Below are positions 2,512 through 40,399 of a DNA stretch of 40,399 bases, in pieces. Below the pieces are notes generated by a model that was given only the letters and a program-made list of their open reading frames with translations, made no database searches and had not been told where the DNA came from. A program made the translations under genes and the position numbers. This stretch comes from an uncultured bacterium. Lineage in GTDB: Bacteria; Cyanobacteriota; Vampirovibrionia; Gastranaerophilales; Gastranaerophilaceae. The number at the start of each line of letters is the position of its first letter. Position 1 is the first letter of the stretch. The DNA lies in the NCBI GenBank assembly GCA_947428835.1, contig CANENE010000015.1:1-40399 (forward strand). The letters run 5' to 3'.

Positions 2512-3905
2512 AAAAGGTATTTTTTAAGCTCATCTTTTGAAAAAACTTCAATACTTTCTTTGTTATGAATGAAAACAAGACAGCTTATGACGGATTTGAA
2601 CATATTAAATTCGCTAAATTCAAATTTCCGCCTCAAATCGTCCATATTTTCAGCCAAAAATTCCGTAATCAAAGCTTTATTTTTCAAAGTCAAAGAAGTA
2701 AAGAAATCGAGCCCTTCTTTTGTGGTAATTCCTTCAAAATATAGAATATCAGGGCTTTGAAATTCAATAAATCTCATTGCTTTATCAAGGTTAAAACCTA
2801 TATTTTCATTCAATTCGCACTGAGATACATTTTTTAACCTGTATTTTGCAATACTTTCAAGTGTCATGATATTTTTTGATTTTGGAATTAAATTTGATAA
2901 AATCGAATAAATTAAATGCGTTTTTCCAACCAGACTTGCTCCGCAAATCAAAATCACACCTGGCTTTAGAAGAGATTGTTTGATAAGTTCTATCTTATCT
3001 TCTTCTATATTCATCTTTTCAATAGGTATCGGCGGGTGATAGATTTTAATAAGTATTCTTTCCCCATTTATGGTTGGAAACGCACTCACCGAAGCAGTAA
3101 GTTCAATTTCTCCAACGTTAAAACTTAATTTTCCAAGCTGCGGAATTTCAAAGACATTAGGATCAAGATTACATAGGGTCTTTAAGGATTGTACAAAAGG
3201 ATTTGTAAGCAGGCTTGGAATTACTCCTGTTTGAATAACATCATCTGCTCTTTTAAAATTAACGCTCAAGCCTTCTTGTGTATTTTCAAAATAAAGTTCT
3301 TTGAAATCCTCGCTTATTGCTTGTTTTAAAATCGCCTTAAATAAAACCTGAATATGTTCGGAAGATAGATTGTCGCGATGCAGCTCATCTTGCCAATTAA
3401 CAGATGTTGTATTATCAATATCGATATTGTCGATTTTACCTTTTACGTCATAATATTCTTTGATTTTCTTTAAAATAGAAGTTTCAGCGGCAATTACAGG
3501 GTCTATGTTTTTGCCTGTAATTTTCATAATTTTATCAATTGAAAAAAGATCCATAGGATCTGCCATTGCTACAGTGAGCGTATCTTCGATTATAAAAAGA
3601 GGAAGAATTTTGAACCTTAGAGCATCTTTGCAGCTGATAAATTCAAGGCATTTTTTATCAATTGAATAATTTTCAAGATTAACGCAAGGTGTGTGTAATT
3701 TTTCTTCCAAAAATTTCATTAAAGTTTCTTCAGATAACATTTTTGTATTTATTAGAATTTGGCCGATATTTGTATTTTGCGCAAGCGCAAGCTCGCTTGC
3801 ATGTTCTATATCATCATAAGTGACCAAATTATCTCTTACTAAATCATATTTCAGTTTGTCTAAAGTTTTATTATCCAAAGAAGGATTATCGTTCAACAAA
3901 TCCAT
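2508..3905 (-). CDS. degenerate PilB/GspE-like secretion ATPase
   Basis: 465 residues built like the assembly ATPases of type IV pili and type II secretion. An N-terminal MshEN-type domain lies at about 20-150 (IGQILINTKMLSEETLMKFL, then LPLFIIEDTLTVAMADP). A P-loop, GASLVGKT, is at 322-329, and PDILYFEGI at about 385-393 is in the Walker B place. Family landmarks are missing or altered: no clear Asp box (TLESIAK instead of the usual EDP segment), no STLHTN-type His box, and no four-Cys zinc finger. It may be a regulatory or partner ATPase rather than the main motor. It is the third gene of an operon after the kinase and receiver, about 10 bases from the receiver stop. Confidence 0.75.
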   Translation of the reverse strand: MDLLNDNPSLDNKTLDKLKYDLVRDNLVTYDDIEHASELALAQNTNIGQILINTKMLSEETLMKFLEEKLHTPCVNLENYSIDKKCLEFISCKDALRFKILPLFIIEDTLTVAMADPMDLFSIDKIMKITGKNIDPVIAAETSILKKIKEYYDVKGKIDNIDIDNTTSVNWQDELHRDNLSSEHIQVLFKAILKQAISEDFKELYFENTQEGLSVNFKRADDVIQTGVIPSLLTNPFVQSLKTLCNLDPNVFEIPQLGKLSFNVGEIELTASVSAFPTINGERILIKIYHPPIPIEKMNIEEDKIELIKQSLLKPGVILICGASLVGKTHLIYSILSNLIPKSKNIMTLESIAKYRLKNVSQCELNENIGFNLDKAMRFIEFQSPDILYFEGITTKEGLDFFTSLTLKNKALITEFLAENMDDLRRKFEFSEFNMFKSVISCLVFIHNKESIEVFSKDELKKYLF

Positions 3906-3914
3906 TTTTACACC

Positions 3915-4277
3915 TTAAATTAAATGTTTTTCAATTTTTTCAAGAACATCAGAAAATTCAAAAGGCTTTGTAATATATTCATCCGCCCCTGTTTCTTCGC
4001 CTATGATTTTGTCTTCATCCTGGCTTCTTGCAGTAATCATAATAATCGGAATATTTTTGTAGCGGTTATCAAATTTCAAAAGACGGCAAATCTTATAACC
4101 ATTGATTTTTGGCATCATAACATCAAGTATGACAAGGTCCGGGTTTTCATTTTTAGCTTTATTTAGCCCTTCTTCGCCATCTAATGCCGTAATGCATTCA
4201 AACCCTTTGGCCTTTAGCATAAAAGAAAGGGTTTCAACTATATCTTTTTCATCATCAACTATCAAAATCTTTTTCAT
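3915..4277 (-). CDS. single-domain response regulator (CheY-like receiver)
   Basis: A 120-residue stand-alone receiver with all phosphorylation residues: D8-D9, phosphoacceptor D52 in LVILDVMMP, T82 in MITAR and K104 in ITKPF. It lacks an output domain, so it must act by protein contact. The ATG at 4277 (MKKILIVDD) is chosen because AGAGGA lies about 5 bases upstream; a GTG at 4304 is in frame but has no support. It lies between the histidine kinase and the PilB-like ATPase in one operon, so it may carry the kinase signal to that ATPase. Confidence 0.85.
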   Translation of the reverse strand: MKKILIVDDEKDIVETLSFMLKAKGFECITALDGEEGLNKAKNENPDLVILDVMMPKINGYKICRLLKFDNRYKNIPIIMITARSQDEDKIIGEETGADEYITKPFEFSDVLEKIEKHLI

Positions 4278-35241: not shown

Positions 35242-35340
35242 GCCAAAGTGAACTTGTTTGCGCATCTGAGGTGTTGGAATGTAAAAAATCGATGTAATAC
35301 CACAAACCTGGTCAGACCCTGAAACGAGTTCACTGTGGCG
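35242..35340. repeat. family B composite repeat
   Basis: GCCAAAGTGAACTTGTTTGCGC, TCTGAGGTGTTGG, then CTGGTCAGACCCTGAAACGA and GTTCACTGTGGCG. It has the layout of the copy at 13986-14100, with one stem strand changed. Confidence 0.6.
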
Positions 35341-35419
35341 TATTAATAAAAAGCTTTCAAAAAAAGAGGCTTATCATTAAGACAAACCTCGTAATCTAAC
35401 ACAAAAAATAACATGAAAT

Positions 35420-37735
35420 TTATATATCCGAATAATCACTTCCATCATAAACGCACCGTGCACTTAGTGAGAAATTATACAGAAAAGAGCCCAAAATAAA
35501 ATCTGATTTAATTACCGCATATGTATTTGTTCCTACGAGTGTTTCGCTCCAAATGCTTCCCGGAAGGCAATAGTTGCTGTTTGAATTCATACAGGTTGTA
35601 CTGTCTTTACATTGTACAAATCCGCCAACTACATTTCCTGCACACAATTGTAATCCATCTTTACCTCTGTTGTTATTTATAATATGTTTATTTTCTCCCA
35701 TTTTTTGAAGTTCATAAATATTTGGAAGCCTCCAGTAACCTGCTTTTGTTTTTCCGTTTGCAATGTAATTTTTACAAGCTTCATTTGCTACATTCCACTG
35801 ACAGACTGTTCTGTTGCATCCCGAGTAATTAGCTCCAACATTGCCTGATATTCCGCAAGTGTCTGCTGTTTTGCCTTTATAGCAGCAATAGCCCTGAGCT
35901 GTACAATATTGACCGGGAGTTAATATATTCTTACTATATTCGGCAGGAATATTCGGACCCAAGCCTTCAGGACCGCTGTCTCCTACATTATATTTTGAAA
36001 TACATAAGTTTCTGGCTCCTCCTGTATATTTTTTATGTATAAATATGGCGGTCAATTTTTCACAATCTTCCTGTGATTTAGGTTCATCCTTCGGGGCATT
36101 TGTATCGTCCCAATCGCTTAAGTCATTCTCGTAATTATTCGCTTTTGTAATGCCGTCATATACACATCTGACACTTGCTGCTACTGTATATTCAAAATCA
36201 ATTATTGATGAGGTAGCAGAAGACAATATTGCATAGGTATTTTGCTTGTTTGATGTCTGTGACCATACATATCCCGGATAGCATCCGCCGCTATATGAAT
36301 TTGTGCCACTTGTGCCGCTGCATCCCGAGGTTCTTCTTTCACATTGAGAAAAACCTGCCGCGGCAGTACTTGAACATAGTTGCAATCCATCCTTGCCTTT
36401 ATTATTGTTTATTTCATTAAAATATTGTGTCCAAACGCTATATTCCGCCTGTGTAGGAAGCCTCCAGGCTCCTGTTGCAGTAGCTCCAAAAGCATTATAC
36501 AGCCTGCAAGCGGCGTTTGCCGCATTCCACTGACATACGGTTCTGTTGCAACCGGAGTAATTTGCACCGGCATTATTGCTTGCAGTATTACAAGCACCTG
36601 CAGTTTTGCCTTTCCAGCAGCAATTGCCCGCATAAGGGCAGGTTTGACCTATGCCCATAATATATTGACCAAAACTGTCAGGAATTGGTGGTCCAAAGCC
36701 ATCAGGCCCTGCATCACCTGCATTATATTTAGAAACGCAGATATTGCGGTTAGCTCCTGACATTTTTTTATCAATGAATATTGCAACAATTTTGTCACAG
36801 TCTTCCTGGGATGCGGGTTCTCCATAAAATGGATCTGTGCTTGGATCTTTTATACCATTGCCCGGAAGCTCTGATATATCTACTGTCATACTATCCAGTA
36901 TGCATCTTGCACCAAGTGCCGAATTTGCAGTCATACCGCCTGACAAATAAAGCTTTCCTTTAATTACCGCAAGCGCCCTAAAAGTATTTGACTCCCCGCT
37001 TTGGATACTATTTGCCCAAACATTTGTCGGATAACAATTGTTGACATTTCCGCTTAGATTTGATGTAGGGCACTTATTTGCATAATGATCACATAAAACA
37101 GCGCCATAACTTGAAGATTCCTGATCACAAAATTGTAGTCCTTCTTTACCTTTGTTATTGTTCAAGCTTAAAAGATTATTTCCCCAGGCTGTTATTTCAT
37201 CGGAATTTGGAATTCTCCAACGTCCTTCATTTTCGTTGTTTGGTGCATAAGAAGCACAGCTTGCATTTGCCGCAGGAAGATTGCAGACAGTTCTATTACA
37301 TCCGCTGTAATCACTATCCCCATTTCCGCTATTTCCGCAATTGCCTGAAGTTTTTCCCTGCCAGCAGCAATTGCCTGCTTCTTTATCAGGACATGTTTCA
37401 CCAACAGATAGAATTTTAACTCCTTTTGCAATAGCAACGCCGCTATTATCTGCATTATCACCAACATTGTATCTTGTAACACAGATGTTTCTTGCGCCTC
37501 CGTTCATTGCAGCAGGAATAAATATTGCATCATATTTATCGCAGTCTTCTTTTGTAACTTGTCTTTCTAATGTCATATTTACATTACTTCCGCTTCCAAA
37601 AGAACCTATTGAAATATCTGATGCTTTAAGTTTCTTTGTTATAATTGGCGCAAATGCTGCAACTAAAAGAGAGATTATAATCAAACTAATTAAAAGCTCG
37701 ATTAGAGAAAATGCTTTTTTGTAATTCTTTTCCAT
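35420..37735 (-). CDS. giant prepilin-like protein with three Cys-rich lectin-like modules
   Basis: 771 residues, far longer than ordinary pilins (about 130-200). The ATG at 37735 has AACAGG 8 bases upstream. The N-terminus KKA-FSLIELLISLIIISLL is a class III/type IV prepilin signal with Ala at -1 in place of Gly and Glu at +5. Three related modules follow, about 62-285, 300-530 and 545-765. Each has an EDCDK start, a MNGG/MSGA segment, NICVTRYNVGD, CCW-GKT, YSGCNRTVC, WRLP, GLQLC-type and a final ARCV/VRCV motif. WRLP plus the ARCV/VRCV end recalls DUF1566/FISUMP and formylglycine-enzyme-like C-type lectin folds. It is divergent from the XRE gene at 37888. A surface adhesin or pilus-tip role is inferred. 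Confidence 0.7.
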   Translation of the reverse strand: MEKNYKKAFSLIELLISLIIISLLVAAFAPIITKKLKASDISIGSFGSGSNVNMTLERQVTKEDCDKYDAIFIPAAMNGGARNICVTRYNVGDNADNSGVAIAKGVKILSVGETCPDKEAGNCCWQGKTSGNCGNSGNGDSDYSGCNRTVCNLPAANASCASYAPNNENEGRWRIPNSDEITAWGNNLLSLNNNKGKEGLQFCDQESSSYGAVLCDHYANKCPTSNLSGNVNNCYPTNVWANSIQSGESNTFRALAVIKGKLYLSGGMTANSALGARCILDSMTVDISELPGNGIKDPSTDPFYGEPASQEDCDKIVAIFIDKKMSGANRNICVSKYNAGDAGPDGFGPPIPDSFGQYIMGIGQTCPYAGNCCWKGKTAGACNTASNNAGANYSGCNRTVCQWNAANAACRLYNAFGATATGAWRLPTQAEYSVWTQYFNEINNNKGKDGLQLCSSTAAAGFSQCERRTSGCSGTSGTNSYSGGCYPGYVWSQTSNKQNTYAILSSATSSIIDFEYTVAASVRCVYDGITKANNYENDLSDWDDTNAPKDEPKSQEDCEKLTAIFIHKKYTGGARNLCISKYNVGDSGPEGLGPNIPAEYSKNILTPGQYCTAQGYCCYKGKTADTCGISGNVGANYSGCNRTVCQWNVANEACKNYIANGKTKAGYWRLPNIYELQKMGENKHIINNNRGKDGLQLCAGNVVGGFVQCKDSTTCMNSNSNYCLPGSIWSETLVGTNTYAVIKSDFILGSFLYNFSLSARCVYDGSDYSDI

Positions 37736-37801
37736 TGATTTAACCTGTTTTTCTACCAAACAATGATAATTTTATATAATTTAACTAACACATAATTATA
37801 T

Positions 37802-37829
37802 ATTCTAACTATTTAATAGATTATGTCAA
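37802..37829 (-). promoter_or_regulatory. promoter of the first giant prepilin-like gene
   Basis: On the reverse strand, TTGACA (37829-37824) and TAGAAT (37807-37802) are separated by 16 bases. The start would be near 37795, giving a leader of about 60 bases. Confidence 0.65.
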
Positions 37830-37853
37830 ATATTTTCTTACAATCAGGTAGTG

Positions 37854-37859
37854 TATAAT
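37854..37859 (+). promoter_or_regulatory. -10 box of the first XRE gene
   Basis: TATAAT lies at 37854-37859 and overlaps an in-frame ATG at 37858, which rules that ATG out as a start and favours the ATG at 37888. Confidence 0.55.
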
Positions 37860-37887
37860 GTTTACAAAATCCATTAAAGTAGTATTA

Positions 37888-38217
37888 ATGAATGAAATAG
37901 TAAACCATATAGGAACAAAAATTAAACAATTCCGCAAACAAAAAGGACTTACCCAAGCCGAACTTGCAGAAAAAATCAATGTCGATCCAAAATACATTTC
38001 AAGACTTGAAACAGGCACTTCTACCCCATCTATCGCTATAATTGCACGTTTGGGAGAAGTTTTGAATGTGGATATTTTTAATTTTTTTGTCGTTGAATCA
38101 AAAGAAAAGAAAACCCATATAATTGAGCTCATTAATTCAAGACTTGTAAAAGCTACTGTTAAGGAATTAAATGCTATATTTGAAATAGTTTCTGTTATAA
38201 CGGAGCAAAAAAGCTAA
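37888..38217 (+). CDS. XRE-family transcriptional regulator 1
   Basis: 109 residues. The helix-turn-helix is KIKQFRKQKGLTQAELAEKI followed by NVDPKYISRLETGTSTPS (about 9-50), and the rest is a helical dimerisation tail (IIELINSRLVKATVKELNAI). The start at 37888 is chosen because an upstream ATG lies within the -10 box; the Shine-Dalgarno is weak. It is divergent from the first giant prepilin-like gene and convergent with its paralogue, stops 10 bases apart. Confidence 0.85.
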   Translation: MNEIVNHIGTKIKQFRKQKGLTQAELAEKINVDPKYISRLETGTSTPSIAIIARLGEVLNVDIFNFFVVESKEKKTHIIELINSRLVKATVKELNAIFEIVSVITEQKS

Positions 38218-38227
38218 CCTTATTTTA

Positions 38228-38551
38228 TTATTTTAAAAGAAAAGTTCTGATATATTTGTGTGCAAGGACAAGTTCTTGCTTGTCTAATGTTTTAACCATT
38301 GAATTTATTGATTTTCTAAGGTCATTCGGTTCTTGCAGATGATAGAATTCGAAAAAATCTTTTGCTTCAATTTTAAAAGCATCACACAGGCGCACAAGCA
38401 AATCTGCGGAAGGGAAATTTTTGCCGCTTTCAATGCAGCTTATGTGTTTATCATCAACATTAACAAGTTCTGCAAGCCTTGCCTGGGTCAGATTATTTTT
38501 CTTACGAAGCTCTTTTAATTTTTTCCCAAATAATATTTTAATATTTTCCAT
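38228..38551 (-). CDS. XRE-family transcriptional regulator 2
   Basis: 107 residues with the same layout as the neighbour: KKLKELRKKNNLTQARLAEL and NVDDKHISCIESGKNFPSAD, then a helical tail (SINSMVKTLDKQELVLAHKY). The ATG at 38551 has GGAG 6 bases upstream; a GTG four codons earlier overlaps that site. It is divergent from the second giant prepilin-like gene, whose promoter region carries candidate operators. Confidence 0.85.
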   Translation of the reverse strand: MENIKILFGKKLKELRKKNNLTQARLAELVNVDDKHISCIESGKNFPSADLLVRLCDAFKIEAKDFFEFYHLQEPNDLRKSINSMVKTLDKQELVLAHKYIRTFLLK

Positions 38552-38604
38552 TATTTGCTCCACTTTTATTTTAACTTTCTTGAACTATTTTAAAAATGGA
38601 GTAT

Positions 38605-38662
38605 GAGGTAATATATTGACAAAAAATTACCTATTTTATATAATTCATGGTGTATTAGGTAA
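38605..38662 (+). promoter_or_regulatory. promoter of the second giant prepilin-like gene with candidate operators
   Basis: TTGACA (38616-38621), a 17-base spacer and TATAAT (38639-38644) make a textbook promoter. AGGTAAT (38605-38611) and ATTACCT (38627-38633) are inverted around the -35 box, and a third AGGTAA lies at about 38657-38662 after the expected start. The neighbouring XRE regulators are the obvious candidates to bind here. The downstream leader is about 100 bases. Confidence 0.65.
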
Positions 38663-38754
38663 AATTTGAATAAAATTTATACTTAATTTATAGAAAAACA
38701 CAAAGATATACAGAAATTTTCTAACGCAAAAATTAAATAACAAAGGAAAATAAC

Positions 38755-40278
38755 ATGAGAAGAATTAAAGCTTTTTCTTTAATTGAGCTATTAATTAGCT
38801 TGATTATAATTTCGCTTTTGATTGGGGCTTTTGCACCAATTATTACAAAGAAACTAAAAGCAACGGACGTTACAGTCGGGAGTTTTTCAAACGGTAACAC
38901 AAATAATGTCATTGAAACGACAAGAGATGTTACAAAAGAAGATTGCGATAAAGTTAAAGCTTTGTATATTCCAAAAGAAATGAATGATGGCATAAAGCCT
39001 GTATGTGTTACAAAATGGAATATGGGAGATGGTGGTTTGCCGCTTGCAGCATCTGTAAGAAGACTTAATGTCGGACAAACCTGCACAGATATCGGCTATT
39101 GCTGTTGGCAAGGAAAAACATCTTCCCAATGCACCTCGACAGGAAATGGTGATAGCACCTATTCAGGTTGCAACAGAACCGTTTGCAATTTAGATGCTTC
39201 AAAAATAAGTTGTGCTATGTATGAACCATTAGAAGGAACTAAAGGCCACTGGCGGCTTCCTAAATATAAAGAAGTACTCGGATGGAAAGAAGCGATAGAT
39301 TCCGAAACCGAAACAAATTTAAAGCTTACAAAATGGATGGGAAAAGACGGTCTGCAGTTGTGCGACAGAAACCCTTCTATAAAAGGTACTATGCAGTGTT
39401 TGTATTTATATCATCAATGTGTAGGAACTCACATCAATCATTGTAATGCATATGGAATTTGGACTGATGATGTCGAAGAAAATACTACAAATAAGTATTC
39501 TTTTAGATTGACGGACGGAAAAATTGTACTGGATACAAATGAAGGAAATAGGGCGATGTCAGCAAGATGCGTGCTTGATAAAATAAATGACCATAAACCT
39601 ATAGAGCCTGATGACAAAGAACCCGAAATTAAAACAAAGGAGCCTGAAAATCAGGCAGATTGTGATAAATATAATGCCTTTTTTATTCCAAAAGCTATGA
39701 ATGGCGGAAAAACAAATGTTTGTGCTACAAGATACAACATAGGAGATATTTATATAGATCCTGTTGTAAATGTTGCACAAGTGAACAGTTCAGAATGTGC
39801 AGGAAAATATTGCTGTTGGAAGGGGCAAACAGCAGGAGATTGTACAGACAATTCATATTATTCAGGCTGTTATAGAACTGTTTGTAATTATTGGGCAAGT
39901 GAAATATCTTGTCAAACATATAATCCCGATGGTAAAACAAAAGGTTTTTGGAGACTGCCATATTTTGAAGAAATGCACGATGGTTGGTTTAACAATTTAA
40001 CATTTATGAATAAGGGAGCAAAAGGTCTTCAGCTATGTGGATATTTAACAGGTGAAACACGCTGCAGGCACGTAAATAGCATTTGTAGAGGCGCATATAC
40101 AGAAAGTTCAAAAAATCTATGCGACACTTCGCATTATTGGTTTCTTGTTGAAAAAGGCGATGATGTAAAATCAGGAATATCTTATGCTGCTCCTGCTTAT
40201 GGCGGTACAGAAGCTTGCCCGCATATAAAAAAAGCCTCGTTTCATGCAAGATGCGTAACGGACAAAATTCCGATTTAA
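38755..40278 (+). CDS. prepilin-like protein with two Cys-rich lectin-like modules
   Basis: 507 residues, a paralogue of the gene at 35420-37735. The N-terminus is IKA-FSLIELLISLIIISLL with Ala at -1 and Glu at +5. Two modules follow at about 60-275 and 300-505, with EDCDK/QADCDK, NVC or PVC, NMGD/NIGD, CCW-GKT or GQT, YSGC-RTVC, WRLP, GLQLC and final ARCV-D motifs. A Pro/Glu-rich linker (KPIEPDDKEPEIKTKEPEN) joins them. About ten Cys per module suggest disulfides, so it should be exported and oxidised. AAAGGA precedes the ATG. It is followed by a terminator. Confidence 0.72.
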   Translation: MRRIKAFSLIELLISLIIISLLIGAFAPIITKKLKATDVTVGSFSNGNTNNVIETTRDVTKEDCDKVKALYIPKEMNDGIKPVCVTKWNMGDGGLPLAASVRRLNVGQTCTDIGYCCWQGKTSSQCTSTGNGDSTYSGCNRTVCNLDASKISCAMYEPLEGTKGHWRLPKYKEVLGWKEAIDSETETNLKLTKWMGKDGLQLCDRNPSIKGTMQCLYLYHQCVGTHINHCNAYGIWTDDVEENTTNKYSFRLTDGKIVLDTNEGNRAMSARCVLDKINDHKPIEPDDKEPEIKTKEPENQADCDKYNAFFIPKAMNGGKTNVCATRYNIGDIYIDPVVNVAQVNSSECAGKYCCWKGQTAGDCTDNSYYSGCYRTVCNYWASEISCQTYNPDGKTKGFWRLPYFEEMHDGWFNNLTFMNKGAKGLQLCGYLTGETRCRHVNSICRGAYTESSKNLCDTSHYWFLVEKGDDVKSGISYAAPAYGGTEACPHIKKASFHARCVTDKIPI

Positions 40279-40303
40279 TTGCTTTATATTGTGTTAGATT
40301 AAT

Positions 40304-40334
40304 GCACCTTTGGTTTTTTAGAGGTGCTTTTTTT
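40304..40334 (+). terminator. rho-independent terminator
   Basis: GCACCT (40304-40309) pairs with AGGTGC (40322-40327), followed by seven T. It lies 25 bases after the second prepilin-like gene. Confidence 0.8.
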
Positions 40335-40350
40335 AAAAGCTTCCTAACCC

Positions 40351-40399
40351 GTCACCCTGAACTCGTTTCAGGGTCTGAGCAAGTTTGTAATACTGCATA
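40351..40399. repeat. family B composite repeat, cut by the window end
   Basis: GTCACCCTGAACTCGTTTCA, then GGGTCTGAGCAAGTTTGTAAT: the intact CCCTGAA/TTCAGGG hairpin end of family B. The other half lies beyond the window. Confidence 0.65.

Follow-up and report, generated by a model that had tools for sequence, protein, structure and literature searches.

Two adjacent XRE–adhesin units of a genome-wide repertoire in a Gastranaerophilales genome

The locus and its genes

We analysed contig CANENE010000015.1 of a Gastranaerophilales metagenome-assembled genome (MAG; 1.8 Mb in 24 contigs, here G000 or the own genome); the window is this whole 40,399-base contig. It contains a four-gene locus in which two large prepilin-like proteins, termed adhesin 1 and adhesin 2, are each encoded divergently from a small Cro/C1-type helix-turn-helix (HTH) protein, XRE1 and XRE2, respectively (Table 1). 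The gene order and strands proposed in a first-pass annotation of this DNA were recovered from the open reading frames (ORFs), with slightly corrected starts (the longest ORF of adhesin 1 begins at 37759, upstream of the likely ATG), and the convergent XRE stop codons are separated by 10 bases, as had been described. The assignment of the large proteins as prepilin-like and of the small ones as XRE was likewise confirmed, since matches to PF07963 (N_methyl; 26.5 bits for adhesin 1 and 24.8 bits for adhesin 2, cut-off 21.2) and to HTH_3 exceed their cut-offs, and the N-terminus of both adhesins is the prepilin motif AFSLIELLISLIIISLL..AFAPIITKK. The Pfam family Lcl_C is matched by adhesin 1 (47.7 bits, cut-off 34.9) and is unreported for adhesin 2, yet the modules of the latter belong to the same module family. 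The RstR model NF041951 was not reached by XRE1 or XRE2 (51.1 and 48.7 bits, respectively, against a cut-off of 80), and domain searches of these two window XREs recognised no sensor or ligand-binding domain.

The two halves of the locus had also been described as inverted copies of one another, with paralogous genes at corresponding positions. The longest inverted DNA match, however, is just 128 nt at 78% identity and spans the two prepilin starts, the remaining inverted matches between the halves being shorter and mainly within module-coding regions. XRE1 and XRE2 are 32% identical, each with a 35% match elsewhere in the genome, and are related at superfamily level only; the first 270 residues of the two adhesins are 48% identical, with closer relatives elsewhere in the genome (66% and 54%, respectively). 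In relatives, the orthologues observed for XRE1 and XRE2 lie apart, with an SNF2-type helicase gene beside the former (L192) and a trypsin-like protease gene beside the latter (L215). A mirror-image duplication is thus ruled out by the protein and DNA identities together with the neighbours of the XRE orthologues, and the mirror layout looks like a local coincidence. Homologous exchange might use the 128-nt inverted repeat as a substrate. The two-unit locus is bracketed by a 54-nt repeat (80% inverted match, CCCTGAAACGAGTTCA-like) at window positions 35292-35345 and 40345-40398, and a similar sequence also occurs 3' of other adhesin genes.

Table 1. Features of the two-unit locus (window coordinates) and of a retroelement cassette elsewhere in the genome
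Feature	Position	Strand	Basis or remark
Adhesin 1, prepilin-like, three lectin-like modules	35420..37735	-	ORF; ~771 aa from likely ATG 37735
Adhesin 1 modules	36872-37552, 36134-36808, 35423-36073	-	Module search
Adhesin 1 prepilin cleavage/methylation motif, KKA/FSLIELLIS...	37655..37726	-	PF07963 match
Inverted-repeat arms at prepilin starts, 128 nt, 78%	37590..37717 / 38767-38894	.	DNA self-comparison
Candidate XRE1 operator region, TTGACATAATCTATTAAATAGTTAGAATATAT, overlapping adhesin 1 promoter	37790..37840	-	Conservation
Adhesin 1 promoter, TTGACA-16-TAGAAT	37802..37829	-	11/12 consensus; conserved in L183, L192, L231
XRE1, Cro/C1-type HTH, divergent from adhesin 1	37888..38217	+	HTH_3, 62.7 bits (cut-off 23)
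XRE2, Cro/C1-type HTH, divergent from adhesin 2	38228..38551	-	HTH_3, 43.2 bits (cut-off 23)
Candidate XRE2 operator, AGGTAATATATTGACAAAAAATTACCT, over -35 box	38606..38632	+	0/60 shuffles reach score
Adhesin 2 promoter, TTGACA-17-TATAAT	38616..38644	+	12/12 consensus
Further XRE2 half-site (candidate), TTAGGTAAAA	38655-38664	+	
Adhesin 2, prepilin-like, two lectin-like modules	38755..40278	+	ORF; 507 aa
Adhesin 2 modules	38935-39600, 39652-40275	+	Module search
Retroelement-like cassette: adhesin with variable repeat, bAvd, reverse transcriptase, template repeat	L106:5818-8169 = G000:C3:76817-79168		

A repertoire of adhesin genes with divergent XRE genes

The two units of the window belong to a far larger set. 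A search across the contigs with this adhesin protein gave 70 matches in the own genome; gene counts given here rest on the stretches around such matches only. Forty-two genes were found to carry this prepilin start, 37 of which have a divergent XRE gene immediately upstream, with 102-305 nt between the XRE and prepilin domains; of the five unpaired genes one is truncated at a contig end, the other four being considered below. In relatives, a divergent XRE lies beside 35 of the 46 large genes of this adhesin type, and this pairing, in the own genome as in the relatives, is far beyond chance. A second genus of the family displays it at four loci (L266, L267, L269 and L272). Strict module matches are patchy within the family (12 of 146 genomes, 3 of 41 genera), and when named genomes were searched with the adhesin alignment, most matches came from Candidatus Gastranaerophilales MAGs, the others being labelled just cyanobacteria or uncultured bacterium, plus one weak match outside; this places the organism in that order. 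Approximately 12 contigs of the own genome (C1, C3, C5, C9, C11, C12, C16, C17, C19, C20, C22 and C23) stop inside adhesin genes, as is expected of repeats in metagenome assembly; some genes are thus cut, and the true numbers of units and modules are uncertain.

The encoded proteins consist of a prepilin segment followed by one to four copies of a Cys-rich module of ~215 residues, 105 of which were counted in the own-genome stretches. A single-sequence structure prediction of adhesin 2 was useless (pLDDT, the predicted per-residue confidence, 36), and an alignment of 90 module sequences was used instead, from which AlphaFold2 generated a module model with a mean pLDDT of 93. The best solved-structure matches of this model are the C-terminal domains of Legionella Lcl (8q4e; Foldseek E 9.5e-4, Z 8.5) and Bdellovibrio Bd2740 (8oks; Z 9.2), Yersinia InvE (Z 8.8), a Treponema variable protein that is the target of a diversity-generating retroelement (DGR; Z 8.1) and many C-type lectins at Z 7-8. 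While these Z values are middling overall, the confident prediction points to a binding domain with a C-type-lectin fold resembling Lcl and the tips of Bdellovibrio adhesins; Legionella Lcl binds sulphated glycosaminoglycans (PMC11162425). The genome encodes a prepilin peptidase (PF01478, C2:217867-218199) and yields four matches above cut-off to PilB/GspE-type ATPases (PF00437), and pilA, pilB, pilC, pilT and pilD have been reported from a Gastranaerophilales genome (PMC5877343). The peptidase and the ATPases make export of the adhesins by a type IV pilus or pseudopilus apparatus plausible, and the proteins may be displayed on such a structure. One PF00437 match (78 bits) lies in the same contig as the two-unit locus, at window positions 2739-3362 on the minus strand.

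Some members of the family are associated with a DGR. The own genome's single reverse transcriptase match (C3, ORF 77179-78351), together with a bAvd-type accessory gene, sits between two adhesin units, and the final part of the adhesin gene at C3:78957-80354 matches a repeat on the far side of the reverse transcriptase at 92% identity over 213 nt (Table 1). Only one of the 16 mismatches between this template and variable repeat falls at template adenines, 12 falling at T, and the template carries TAC/CAC codons in place of the expected AAC; the present template thus looks altered, as if it had itself been mutated or overwritten. In relatives, 19 of 20 mismatches fall at template A in a prepilin-module gene of G002 (L256:2416-2632 and 3740-3956), and 24 of 26 (coding strand) in G018 (L258:4614-4833 and 2445-2664), where the target is a module gene truncated by the contig end. 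By this mismatch pattern, members of the adhesin family in relatives are canonical DGR targets. The window adhesins, on the other hand, were ruled out as such, as the variable-repeat region matches 14 places in the genome (E <= 0.01), none of which lies in the window.

Uncoupling of regulator and adhesin

Within the own genome, the 37 paired XREs are highly divergent (mean identity 25%, best pair 51%), compared with a mean identity of 46%, and up to 85%, for the first 270 residues of the adhesins. The two sets of identities are uncorrelated (Mantel r -0.06, p 0.77), which rules out co-inheritance of XRE and adhesin by whole-unit duplication: the XREs are 25% identical where the adhesins are at least 60% identical, and 26% identical where the adhesins fall below 40%. 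DNA similarity between units usually begins at the FSLIE codon (median -4).

Comparison between species gave the opposite picture for the regulatory part. Defining orthologous units as those with XREs at least 55% identical between species yielded 25 pairs, involving 12 distinct own units. Promoter/operator DNA is kept in 22 of these 25 pairs (73-95% identity) as against 19 of 1751 other pairs, and such conservation of a promoter region alongside its XRE is expected of a repressor and its target. The adhesin bodies behind orthologous XREs are, by contrast, no more alike than those of other pairs (32.0% versus 32.1% identical where alignable), and in 11 of 13 XRE-orthologous pairs the adhesin resembles a paralogue from the own genome more closely than its counterpart at the orthologous unit. 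The contrast is large, though the pairs are non-independent and the relatives only sampled, and both window units fit the pattern. In the C2:134 unit (L100), compared with L180 and L217, the XRE is 91% and the intergenic DNA 95% identical, the adhesin bodies being unrelated; other XRE orthologues between the same species are mostly 60-76% identical, and the regulatory part of this unit was possibly acquired by recent lateral transfer.

The uncoupling could also have arisen by lineage-specific duplication and drift only, i.e. through recent multiplication of adhesin genes, each landing beside or recruiting a different XRE, with no exchange of bodies. This would agree with the finding that most adhesins of the own genome (31 of 33) have their closest relative in that genome, and coding constraint would account in part for similarity starting at the prepilin motif. 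However, XREs 57-91% identical between species share a promoter/operator that is followed by an adhesin of this family, which indicates that XRE-adhesin units predate the species split, and adhesin DNA 78-84% identical over 580-1220 nt occurs behind XREs that are just 20-25% identical. We consider duplication and drift unlikely as the sole explanation. Exchange of adhesin bodies is the simplest reading of the uncoupling, as drawn from comparison between species and not from exchange seen within one.

Promoters, candidate operators and control of the units

The promoters noted for both adhesin genes in the first-pass annotation were confirmed and are near-consensus (Table 1). Orthologues of XRE1 in L183, L192 and L231 are 66-68% identical, and the promoter DNA there is 79-81% identical over 103-124 nt; as the adhesin 1 promoter contains no palindrome beyond dinucleotide shuffles, the candidate XRE1 site is placed by conservation alone. 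For XRE2, a palindrome was found over the -35 box, and L215, which carries an XRE2 orthologue (64% identical), has nearly the same palindrome at the equivalent place (AGGTAAATTATTGACACTAATTTACCT), within an overall DNA match that is short (39 nt, E 2e-3). Palindromes beyond dinucleotide shuffles were present in 15 of 37 own intergenic regions (1.9 expected) and in 14 of 46 from relatives (2.3 expected), counts that are not purely of operators since some of the best palindromes sit in the leader rather than the promoter. One XRE class has two palindrome copies, just before -35 and just before -10, with an AATT-like core that is mostly kept and unit-specific flanks that are mostly still symmetrical (CTC..GAG, GTTC..GAAC, TTC..GAA, TAC..GTA, TGC..GCA and CAC..GTG), which is what private operators would look like. 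Seven units (C1:2, C2:45693, C2:74978, C2:78589, C9:62213, C10:58549 and C12:14187) share a 5' leader with AACTATA followed by a short, terminator-like hairpin (GGCA..TGCC) and T run before the start codon; the hairpin has one compensatory pair only, too little covariation to call.

The near-consensus promoters, the candidate operators across -35 and -10 and the divergent XRE are together best read as private repression. The XREs might instead be activators or sensors that turn the adhesin on, which a divergent layout would suit equally and on which the conserved operator, being silent as to the sign of control, does not bear; this seems improbable given the strength of the promoters, the position of several candidate operators over -35 or in the -35/-10 spacer, which is typical of repression, and the lack of a recognised ligand-binding domain in the two window XREs. 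Most improbable is a dedicated switch, as suggested in the first-pass annotation, if taken to mean that the XREs would act on each other's or the opposite adhesin's promoter such that one adhesin is made at a time: the four-gene layout and the ability of small Cro/C1-type proteins of the lambda-repressor kind to form bistable circuits would allow it, but these are two of ~40 such units, their promoter regions differ in sequence and share no operator-like element, there is no sign of cross-wiring, and each promoter region is conserved alongside its own XRE in relatives that lack the other XRE beside it. That annotation's pairing of each large gene with its own XRE thus stands, whereas its two-protein switch is not supported, and independent control of each unit fits better than alternation.

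Weighing these readings, we regard it as probable that the genome carries a repertoire of pilus-type adhesins under private XRE repressors, with stable regulatory addresses and exchanged cargo, and that two neighbouring units of it make up this locus. In each unit, a strong sigma-70-type promoter would drive a prepilin-anchored string of C-type-lectin modules, and the divergent XRE would bind a private operator overlapping this promoter, thereby holding the adhesin off, while probably also controlling its own gene. The XRE and promoter/operator would constitute the address, and the adhesin body, beginning with the prepilin motif, the cargo, which may be exchanged or homogenised between addresses over evolutionary time via homologous recombination at the common prepilin-coding start and between modules. 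Repression might be lifted by a signal, by chance or via some partner; since domain searches of the window XREs revealed no sensor, chance or another partner may be responsible. With the units set independently, different cells could display different adhesin sets.

Several observations weigh against this reading. Four genes of the family have upstream sequence but no divergent XRE, and in the second genus many adhesin genes stand in tandem, also without an XRE. The dependence among the 25 orthologous pairs, which derive from just 12 own units, reduces their weight, and some pairs from relatives (G001, CALVET and CALURR) break the pattern. The species compared are distant, and fast evolution thus contributes to the divergence of the adhesins. 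The absence of a significant palindrome at the adhesin 1 promoter is a further such point.

The system is akin to known kinds, namely multigene surface repertoires and exchangeable pilus adhesins. In the antigenic variation of Neisseria, pilin gene conversion draws on silent cassettes and a single expression site; many paralogous surface genes and apparent segment exchange are common to both systems, but here every gene comes with a promoter and a regulator of its own, and it is the regulator that is conserved between species. Similarly to RstR and other Cro/C1-type phage repressors, the XREs are small HTH proteins with a divergent gene and repeated or palindromic candidate operators over the core promoter; what sets them apart is that the presumed target is a surface adhesin and that a single small genome holds dozens of copies with little resemblance to one another. 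The modules have the same predicted fold class as C-type-lectin DGR targets such as Treponema TvpA (2y3c), and family members are targeted in G002 and G018, although the window genes lack a variable repeat. A related C-type-lectin-like domain is also found in Lcl_C/DUF1566 adhesins, of which Legionella Lcl (8q4e) was the best Foldseek match; Lcl, however, forms trimers on a collagen-like stalk and lacks disulphides (PMC11162425), as opposed to the one to four tandem Cys-rich modules behind a prepilin segment described here. The PilV shufflon of IncI plasmids is comparable in that a type IV minor pilin bears exchangeable adhesin ends that alter target recognition, but in the shufflon a site-specific recombinase acts at sfx sites to rearrange a single gene (PMC9045228), whereas the present repertoire comprises ~40 separate, complete genes, each with a promoter and an XRE of its own. 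With regard to a shufflon or invertible promoter, for which short exact inverted repeats and a dedicated recombinase would be expected, the locus offers only the 128-nt inverted match (78%) over coding sequence, and no recombinase was linked to the adhesin units, recombinase genes not having been searched for. No account of this XRE-adhesin system was found in the literature, which is weak evidence of novelty as most subscription journals were not covered.

Gastranaerophilales are gut relatives of the cyanobacteria, and nearly all knowledge of them derives from metagenomes. The data suggest that adhesins, each gene with a private repressor, take up a sizeable share of a very small genome. Tentatively, dozens of orthogonal repressor-operator addresses, kept across species, might hold exchanged and partly retroelement-hypermutated, pilus-anchored lectin adhesins whose independent on/off combinations would make up a combinatorial surface code. 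Specific predictions follow as to which XRE binds which site, and these are testable with short pieces of DNA. Dozens of XRE-operator pairs in one cell would provide a natural set in which to examine what keeps paralogous regulators from cross-talk, and the repertoire would represent a case in which regulators are conserved between species and their targets swapped.

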